Part shown: positions 7,597-10,500 of the stretch, piece by piece | Numbering within the stretch: position 1 is the first letter of the stretch | Layout: every line of letters begins with the position of its first letter | DNA from: Plumapathes pennacea | Lineage: Eukaryota; Cnidaria; Anthozoa; Antipatharia; Myriopathidae | DNA: 64,000 nt | Assembly: GCA_964036295.1 (NCBI GenBank) | Contig: OZ038462.1 | Span: 14,167,264 to 14,231,263, forward strand | Direction of reading: 5' to 3' | Notes under the pieces: generated by a model | Databases searched by the model: none | What the model saw: the letters and a program-made list of their open reading frames with translations, nothing else | Told to the model about the DNA's origin: nothing | Program-made: the position numbers and the translations under genes

Positions 7597-10500
7597 GTAA
7601 GAACACGGGCACAGCGTGGAAAGCTCGCGCGTTTTTCGGCCGTGCGGTCACCATATTTTTTGGTCAGCGGTCATTGCAAAAAGACTGGTTTCAAGTGCAA
7701 ATTTTGTAGTTCACTTTAACGCTCGTAACTCACCTATCTGATATTTCAGTGTATGTGCACATGTACACACGAAGTAAAAGAATACTGCCGAGTTATGTAG
7801 TAATGACGACGAACGCTGACCAAAGGAACCGAAGTGAAGCCAAGAACATATTTCCGCGATGTCGAACGTGGTGGTGTAAAACAACTGTAAATGGGATACT
7901 TGTGGAGCGTTCTATTTTACGTCAGTATTAGCCGACTGTTGAAACTATTCCAGAAAAAAAAGACCCCACTTGTCAGAGATTTCGGTATTCTGTTTCCGTA
8001 CATTTGCCCGTTATTTGCAGAATTGGATGAGACAACCAAAACATGATTTGTGGTTGTTCATAGGATAACTGAGCACAAAAATTAGAAAGTAGAAAGTACC
8101 ACAAGCTACTGCGCACGTGTGAAAGGGGATTATTCTCAAAGAGCATATAACTGAAAGCTCTCAGTCAATGGGTGCATTCAGCCTATATTTAGTGTTACTT
8201 AGCGTAAATTTTGTTAGAGATCAAAGAAAAAAATGTTTTTGTTTCGCTTCAGTTGCCTCGTACAGAGTGGCAATTCACACCGGTGACGTCAAAGACGCGG
8301 GAACGCAAGCCCACGTGACCTTGTTCCTCATTGGCGAAAAGGGTCGGTCACCCGAGCTCCATCCGGAAAAATCCGAGACGTACCATACGAAGTTCTGTCG
8401 GGACCAGTACGATACGTTCACGTTCAATAATGTTACTCATCTCGGGGATCTGAGGATGCTGCAAGTAACACACGACAACTTCGGCGTCAATTCGGCCTGG
8501 AATGTCAAGGGGATTTATGTCGAGGACAAGTTGACCAGGAAGGTGTACTTCTTTGATTGCAATGCGTGGGTTGGCAAGGACAAGGGGATCGAAAAGCAGG
8601 ACTTTGCCTGTGCTGGATTTACGCTTCCGGAAGGTTAGTTGATGTTGTTTTTGTTTTTGTTTTTTTTAATCGATGTTGTTGTTGTTGTGGTCGTACCTTG
8701 GTACCGAGGTTCTTTCGTCAATCTCTCTCAAACCGTTGAGTGGGAGTCAATGAGTGAGCGTGGCGGACGAATAAACCTCTTTAAAAGAAGGATTGGACTT
8801 TCGCTTCTGTCTCGAATTATTGAGAAAAATTGTCCGTCGTCTTACCTTGGTTTCCAGAGTACAACAGGGTCGCGACCTCGGTCTCGGTCCTCCGACGGAG
8901 AGCGATATAATTGCTGGGATTGGGAACCAGGGTACCCTTGTTCTTAGGCCTGTCATTGCCGTGCACTATTGGTTGATTGTCACACGAGTTTAATCACAAA
9001 CCAGTTTTACAAGTATGAGGTGAAGATTTTGTGAGATTTTGCTTAAATTTTTGTCGCTCCCAAACTGTCAAATGAAAGTTGGTGTGGGCACTCAAACGAA
9101 AGGGCCCAGTGACATCCTACTGGCAGTGTCTACGTTGTTGAGCGTAGTTCAATTTGTTTATTTGTATTTATTTTTAGTTTAATTTGTGCAGAGAAATATT
9201 GCATTTAACTCTTTCACTCCTGACCTCATAATACAAATTCTCCCAACCATTCAAGAAGAAAATGTATGAGCGATGTAGTGAGAATTGATAGGCCAATCAG
9301 TTTTCATCTGAGCAACCTATCAAGCGGCAGATTTCCCATGTTGTTCCATGATTCTCTGGTGAGAGACTTGTCTGCATCGTTGTTTCTAAAACAATTTGCG
9401 AGTTTAGGAAACCAATTGAGGTTCTAAGAAGACAAATCAACTCTATGTCATAGAGCTACGATCACAGGGTATTTTCTCCTTCCATTTTCTGTTTAGAGAT
9501 ATAGAGGAGAGTATGGAGATTTGAGCATGTAAGAGAGCGAGTCTAATTAAGAGAGGATTATGTACAAAGTGAACAGAGAATAGGGATTAACTCAACAAAT
9601 TGTTCATTATTGTTTGCTTTGTTATGGTAAACACTCGAGATCTGGCCAATTCCTTCGTCTCCTTGCGTGTAAAGGCAAGTGTCTTTTGCGAGTTGCCAGA
9701 GAGATTTTGTCTTCGAGTGATACATGTAGTGTCTTCATCATGCCTCGTGTTATGCTCTTCGTGGAAGGTTTGTAAACTGAATTGTTTCGGAAGGTTCTGG
9801 TCCAAGTGTTTTTGAAACAACAGTCATTGAACGCGATGGTCTTGAATGAAAGTTTGTTTGCAAACAGTGCGTCGTGCGATCGGAAGCTGTCGATACGTTG
9901 TTGTTCACTGAGCTGCTTAAACTTTGCGTAGCAGATAAGGGGACTTGAGCCACGTCAGAGCATGTAACTTGTGTTAAATAAGTTCTACATTAGAAGTGAT
10001 TTTGGGAAATTCAGCGGCGTCTGTTTGATGTGCTGTTATGAACTGTTGATCTTCATTTTCTTCTATCAAGCTAGCTTAAGTCGTAGTAGGTTCATTAATT
10101 CACGATGTCTATGTGGGATTTGGCCGCTTTTTGTTTGCTGCGAGTTTTTGGAAGCTGCCGAAAAAGCAAAGTTTAAATATTGCCGGACACTGTTCAAGAA
10201 ATGGAGCATCTTATTCCCTTTCTTTGTCAGGAAAACAGATCATCTCCCATTAACCCTCCCAAGCTCAAAATGCAGATTCTCCCAACCTTTTGAGAAGAAA
10301 ATGTATGAGTCATGTAGAGAGAACCGATAGTTTAATCAGTTGTCATCTGAGCAAGCTATCAAAAGCCAAGTTCTCCTTACTGTATGACATATTTGTGCTG
10401 CGAAAACTAAAGTAGAAAATTAAACTTGATCACTCTTGGGAGTGAAAGGGTTAAAACTAATTTCTTTCAACGTTGATAGGAAATGTACGAGGTGAGAAGT

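Follow-up and report, generated by a model that had tools for sequence, protein, structure and literature searches.

A dystrophin gene with a PLAT exon

The window analysed here, a stretch of 64,000 nucleotides without any N, corresponds to C1:14167264-14231263 of the 290-Mb, 24-contig assembly of Plumapathes pennacea; the data are the genomic DNA of this one species. On the forward strand, positions 8253-8633 form a single 381-nt exon that codes for a complete PLAT/LH2 domain and has phase-1 introns on both sides. Reading from base 8255 gave 126 residues and no stop. The surrounding exons belong to a dystrophin gene, laid out as follows (window positions; R denotes a spectrin repeat).

1528..1839, + strand: exon spanning R12 to R13; the upstream rod is in register up to here
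4975..5362, + strand: R13, then some 65 residues of non-repeat linker; one finder run ended this exon at 5035
5754..5872, + strand: start of R14; donor called, acceptor chosen by hand at a score under the limit
6435..6701, + strand: exon spanning R14 to R15; called as 6442-6701, a phase-0 acceptor 7 bases earlier being chosen by hand
7416..7596, + strand: remainder of R15, the exon before PLAT; starts in phase 0 and ends in phase 1; repeat number from the count and the flanking alignments
8253..8633, + strand: exon of the PLAT/LH2 domain (381 nt; phase 1 at either end); from Pfam, splice scores, GC3, conserved columns and fold search
11991..12220, + strand: exon after PLAT, with a linker of about 35 residues and then the start of R16; aligns from dystrophin chain position 2001
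12556..12879, + strand: exon spanning R16 to R17; called, with dystrophin alignment and Spectrin match
13419..13594, + strand: R17 exon; called, with dystrophin alignment
13855..14005, + strand: exon spanning R17 to R18; called, with dystrophin alignment
14528..14842, + strand: exon spanning R18 to R19; one finder run chose a shorter end, 14789
16909..17051, + strand: start of a repeat read as R20; called exon, with a putative resemblance to the start of vertebrate R20
27525..27581, + strand: WW domain, first half; provisional exon limits
28083..28144, + strand: second half of the WW domain; Pfam and 1eg3 match
28452..28662, + strand: dystrophin EF-hand exon; Pfam and 1eg3 match
32169..32225, + strand: start of the ZZ zinc finger; fragment, E 0.013, below the cut-off, provisional exon limits

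A preliminary description of this DNA had named dystrophin as the host gene, and both the C-terminal region and the in-register rod alignments given below bear this out. The joined WW and EF pieces, which are small hand-made joins, scored 181.7 bits against dystrophin (1eg3) versus 28.2 bits against dystrobrevin. Pfam matches above the cut-offs were obtained for WW (5.9e-10), EF-hand_2 (4.2e-23) and EF-hand_3 (4.6e-05), the ZZ fragment falling under its cut-off. Spectrin matches over the Pfam cut-off flank the PLAT exon on both sides (2.3e-07 before, 1.7e-27 after), the match for R13 being obtained with the first part of 4975-5362 joined to 1528-1839. Upstream of the window, CH-like pieces were read by motif, two fragments giving no Pfam match; this dystrophin likely has an N-terminal actin-binding end. 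No second dystrophin gene was found when the genome was searched with an R16-R17 query, the matches being three exons of this locus and, elsewhere, three weak matches on C6 (22-26% identity).

The linker between R13 and R14 is hinge-like, and no such linker is known from vertebrate dystrophin. A long run of GT dinucleotides at 7375-7407 closely precedes the 7416 acceptor of the R15 exon and could affect the splicing of that exon.

Boundaries, composition and domain identity of the exon

The exon preceding PLAT ends in AGAAG/gtaaga at 7596 and the PLAT acceptor reads ...cgcttcag/TTGCCT at 8253, while the PLAT donor reads GGAAG/gttagt after 8633 and the next exon starts ctcacag/AAGGCG at 11991 (slashes mark exon limits). 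Reading of these junctions, together with the read-through joins, upheld the phase 1 previously claimed for both flanks. The PLAT-plus join reads through seven exons and the PLAT-minus join through six, with no stop in either; the direct join of 7596 to 11991 is in phase 1, and the earlier proposal that skipping would be frame-neutral is supported at this level. Splice matrices were derived from 28 called exons other than this one; among 6313 AGs they put the PLAT acceptor within the best 1.8%, and among 6641 GTs the donor within the best 0.6%. The PLAT exon was retained in both runs of a chain finder using codon and splice scores, whose training set of helical spectrin exons biases it against a beta domain. 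This finder is rough, calling 31 exons per run of which some were wrong or corrected by hand (5754, 6435), and the 3' phases of its 31 called exons (21 in phase 0, 6 in phase 1 and 4 in phase 2) serve as a rough guide only.

The GC content of third codon positions (GC3) was 0.67 in the PLAT exon and 0.68 in the other exons, compared with 0.21 in the 28 codons between an in-frame ATG at 8168 and the acceptor; the intron after the exon has an overall GC of 0.39. Among 20000 sequences drawn from a dinucleotide model, 278 contained a frame this long by chance, and openness alone is therefore modest evidence for the exon. The case is carried by the domain match, GC3 and the conserved columns. The exon DNA was found in one copy in the genome. 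The step from sequence to use of the exon appears well supported, its splicing into dystrophin mRNA being a prediction.

The exon product with its junction residues matched the Pfam PLAT family (PF01477) with an E of 1.3e-19 and 71.4 bits (cut-off 23); the match covers positions 1-108 of the 117 in the profile. In a sequence search of the PDB, the exon matched 18 distinct sequences at E<=1, the best being polycystin-1 (1.9e-09), with coral allene oxide synthase-lipoxygenase at 1.1e-08 and RAB6IP1 at 2.5e-06 over residues 57-110. We defined as conserved those columns in which at least 80% of 19 PLAT rows from the same genome, 16 of them PKD1-like, share one residue; the dystrophin exon keeps 18 of these 21 columns and changes 3. 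Together with the splice sites and GC3, these matches substantiate the full PLAT exon of the preliminary description. An AlphaFold2 model of the exon alone, made without an alignment, reached modest confidence (pLDDT 64.7, pTM 0.60). Foldseek searches with this model returned 51 chains at E<=0.001 and 564 at E<=10, and the 50 matches listed were lipoxygenases, RAB6IP1 and lipases (best E 7.3e-06, best TM 0.68), families that carry PLAT domains. As modelled, the exon has the PLAT beta-sandwich fold.

Where the lipoxygenase-like row has NDFE and AGTD, the dystrophin PLAT has TKFC and AGTQ, a composition that is not of the calcium type. The NDFE loop and the AGTD residues are the presumed calcium ligands of the lipoxygenase PLAT; a calcium switch of the lipoxygenase type is therefore not expected and, judged from these residues, is unlikely in the dystrophin PLAT. 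The computed pI of the domain is 6.32, near neutral and not clearly basic.

Position in the rod

Of the 955 residues before PLAT, residues 4-616 align to positions 1096-1696 of the dystrophin chain 9c3c_D (133 bits, next placement 27), and the other 339 gave no in-register alignment. After PLAT, residues 38-384 of 398 align to 9c3c_D 2001-2345 (118 bits, next placement 34), and R16 with its linker is best placed at 2001-2106 (28.3 bits, next 11.1). Between the two aligned stretches lie 305 residues of 9c3c_D, a length of about three repeats. Reading the third-helix segments gave three from the end of R12 to PLAT and four from PLAT to the exon at 16909, the repeat limits and the identity of R20 in this count being presumed. 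R14-R15 alone had no PDB match at E<=0.01, so the repeat numbers before PLAT rest on the flanks and the count. Taken together, the flanking alignments, the 305-residue gap and the helix count place PLAT at the R15/R16 junction. The insertion between spectrin-repeat exons put forward earlier is thus retained, and its placement between R15 and R16, as read from these alignments, is a new refinement. PLAT adjoins the linker in frame and no spectrin repeat is broken. At this junction, according to PMC2873924, the vertebrate protein carries an insertion of 20 residues.

The rod around the domain is acidic, with computed pI values of 4.83 for R12-R15 and 5.13 for R16-R17. In the available part of a 2023 review of dystrophin evolution (PMC10293626), SR12-17 are described as acidic in all non-vertebrate dystrophins and the second actin-binding stretch as probably absent in invertebrates. 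The acidity of R12-R17 suggests that a second actin-binding stretch of the vertebrate type is probably absent here too. Compared with the long forms of vertebrate and invertebrate dystrophin, the protein shares a rod in register over two long stretches, the WW domain, the EF-hands and the start of ZZ, and differs in its PLAT domain at R15/R16, its R13/R14 linker and its acidic R12-R17.

The same review, in the text available, states that the human dystrophin layout was already present in cnidarians. It compares dystrophins 'from corals to humans', and a search of its accessible text for 'plat' gave no hits, so other cnidarians could lack PLAT in their dystrophin. No description of PLAT in dystrophin was found in the literature searched, including PMC10293626, PMC4582122, PMC9145010 and PMC10240460 as far as their texts were accessible; subscription papers and protein databases lay outside this search, and automatic annotations may exist. 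The available text of the dog paper PMC10240460 was set aside, its dystrophin and PLAT wording occurring in unrelated places.

Origin, possible role and alternatives

At E<=0.001, 87 or more PLAT matches were found in the genome, the dystrophin exon included, and the best full-length paralogues of that exon are about 39% identical to it. Given this distance and the single copy of the exon DNA, a recent duplication within the genome is not supported. Scans that reach close relatives only gave 35 pattern matches in prokaryote genomes and 4 in viral contigs, with none confirmed in either, and there was no sign in them of contamination or transfer from prokaryotes or viruses. The labels 'PKD1-like', 'lipoxygenase-like' and 'LOXHD1-like' used for the paralogues come from reading open frames, Pfam having given only PLAT in the three frames scanned. 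At C8:17.126-17.541 Mb, 14 PLAT matches cluster in long open frames that were read as PKD1-like.

A LOXHD1-like PLAT-repeat gene lies on the minus strand at C3:5.459-5.497 Mb, where 35 matches were examined. It shares with the dystrophin exon the PLAT unit and the phase-1 start, and differs in carrying a whole series of PLAT units, many of which are interrupted by internal introns. An acceptor was callable for 12 of its 16 domain starts, and all 12 have a phase-1 candidate, one of them with a better phase-0 acceptor as well. Fifteen matches reach the domain end, and 6 of the 9 callable donors there are in phase 1. The phase-1 starts make exon shuffling plausible, a fit rather than a proof; the shuffling suggested in the preliminary description is strengthened to that extent.

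In a tree of 20 rows chosen from 47 matches, the dystrophin PLAT fell outside the PKD1-like rows (93/90), and its apparent sister was flagged as a long-branch meeting. When the lipoxygenase-like row was left out, dystrophin and four repeat units split from 11 PKD1-like rows (98/98); when it was included, the placement outside the PKD1-like rows received 96/94 and the grouping of dystrophin with the repeats only 60/47. The branch of the dystrophin PLAT is long (1.65-1.75), and trees constrained to place it among the PKD1-like rows were not rejected (p-AU 0.33 and 0.30), so the donor of the exon is unsure. On the sequences compared, a donor of the LOXHD1 or lipoxygenase type seems more likely than one of the polycystin type. 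The polycystin-1/PKD1-like PLAT shares the HDN.G....W motif and the best PDB sequence match, whereas the best trees, which are not decisive, leave the dystrophin PLAT outside its group. The PLAT of animal lipoxygenases and allene oxide synthase-lipoxygenases shares the TGD...AGT motif at the start and the best fold matches, and differs in the presumed calcium ligands. RAB6IP1 (DENND5), presumably a Rab effector, shares the partial sequence match and a fold match, but has no spectrin rod.

Our preferred reading, which we consider moderately probable, is that the PLAT exon functions within dystrophin and adds a docking module in the middle of the rod that acts without a calcium switch. A phase 1-1 PLAT exon would have been inserted into a phase-1 intron at the linker, and its beta-sandwich would hang off the mid-rod. 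There, independently of calcium, it may anchor the rod either on lipid of the membrane or on a protein partner at the cortex, giving a mid-rod attachment where R12-R17 are acidic and the second actin-binding stretch of vertebrates is probably missing. Since skipping of the exon preserves the frame, attachment could be tuned by splicing. The docking role is proposed by analogy with the family, whose members bind lipids and proteins (accessible text of PMC8051682), lipoxygenase PLAT domains binding membranes in a calcium-dependent manner (available part of PMC9682198). By the same analogy, lipid would be a somewhat more likely ligand than protein. An additional domain for docking to lipid or protein seems to be present in the mid-rod of this anthozoan dystrophin. 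The 'second membrane contact' of the preliminary description keeps its place as a possible contact, but a calcium-type membrane switch is less likely than it implied, and 'second' is loose wording: PMC10293626 describes phospholipid binding for vertebrate R1-3 and partial targeting to the skeletal sarcolemma for an R10-12 construct.

The most serious alternative accepts a PLAT-plus dystrophin and has the domain dock a protein partner only, with no lipid role. Docking to a protein partner might be expected of a RAB6IP1-type PLAT, and RAB6IP1 is among both the sequence and the fold matches; the protein binding known for the family and the loss of the lipoxygenase-type calcium residues also fit. 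Nevertheless, no partner is known, and nearly all the fold matches listed are lipoxygenases or lipases, which act on lipid, and we hold this alternative to be possible but the less probable one. It is very unlikely that the exon is a relic or a rarely used exon, formerly spliced in and now mostly skipped and decaying: the long branch, the frame-neutral skipping and the three changed columns could be explained in this way, but the exon has no stop or frameshift, keeps most conserved columns, has a GC3 like that of other exons and shows good splice scores.

Two further alternatives would remove the exon from dystrophin. The stop-to-stop frame 8123-8638 contains the ATG at 8168, and a small stand-alone PLAT protein could run from it to the stop at 8636-8638, as a separate gene nested in a dystrophin intron. 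The main argument against such a gene, which we regard as most improbable, is the drop of GC3 upstream of the acceptor. Moreover, acceptor and donor score well and fit the intron phase of the host; the stop lies 5 bases or less past the donor, as if coding ended at the donor; and, on purely theoretical grounds, symmetry together with the right phase would be expected in about 1 in 9 random exons. Misplacement of the exon from another gene, through an error of assembly or gene model, might be suspected with one assembly and with PLAT exons so common in this genome. We consider it exceedingly unlikely, as the phases of the exon match the host gene, its DNA was found once, the window contains no N and the best full-length paralogue is so distant.

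Returning to a PLAT domain that works within dystrophin, a bolder version would have the anthozoan lineage rebuild the mid-rod attachment altogether: a PLAT of the mechanosensory LOXHD1 type, brought by shuffling into the linker between R15 and R16, would act as a calcium-independent clutch on membrane or cortex, replacing the mid-rod actin-binding stretch of vertebrates and toggled by exon skipping. We judge this version unlikely. The dystrophin rod is usually viewed as spectrin repeats and hinges. If PLAT is indeed a part of the protein, the R15/R16 linker accepts a whole folded docking domain, which bears on the respective shares of simple spacing and of attachment in the job of the rod and has a practical side for shortened dystrophins.

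Elsewhere in the window, a single open frame at 55372-56490 pairs a FAM60A match (4.2e-10) with a following F-box-like domain (1.2e-10), an odd combination that is possibly a mobile element or a fused gene. Outside it, contig C24 (17,711 bases) is the mitochondrial genome. Of tRNA genes, the two pieces of it that were scanned yielded only tRNA-Met and one with the anticodon tca. The cox1 gene is interrupted by a frame that has a LAGLIDADG match, and nad5 comes in two parts that enclose nad1 and nad3. This gene arrangement looks like the hexacorallian pattern, the presence of nad1 and nad3 alone inside nad5 pointing to sea anemones or their close relatives rather than to stony corals.
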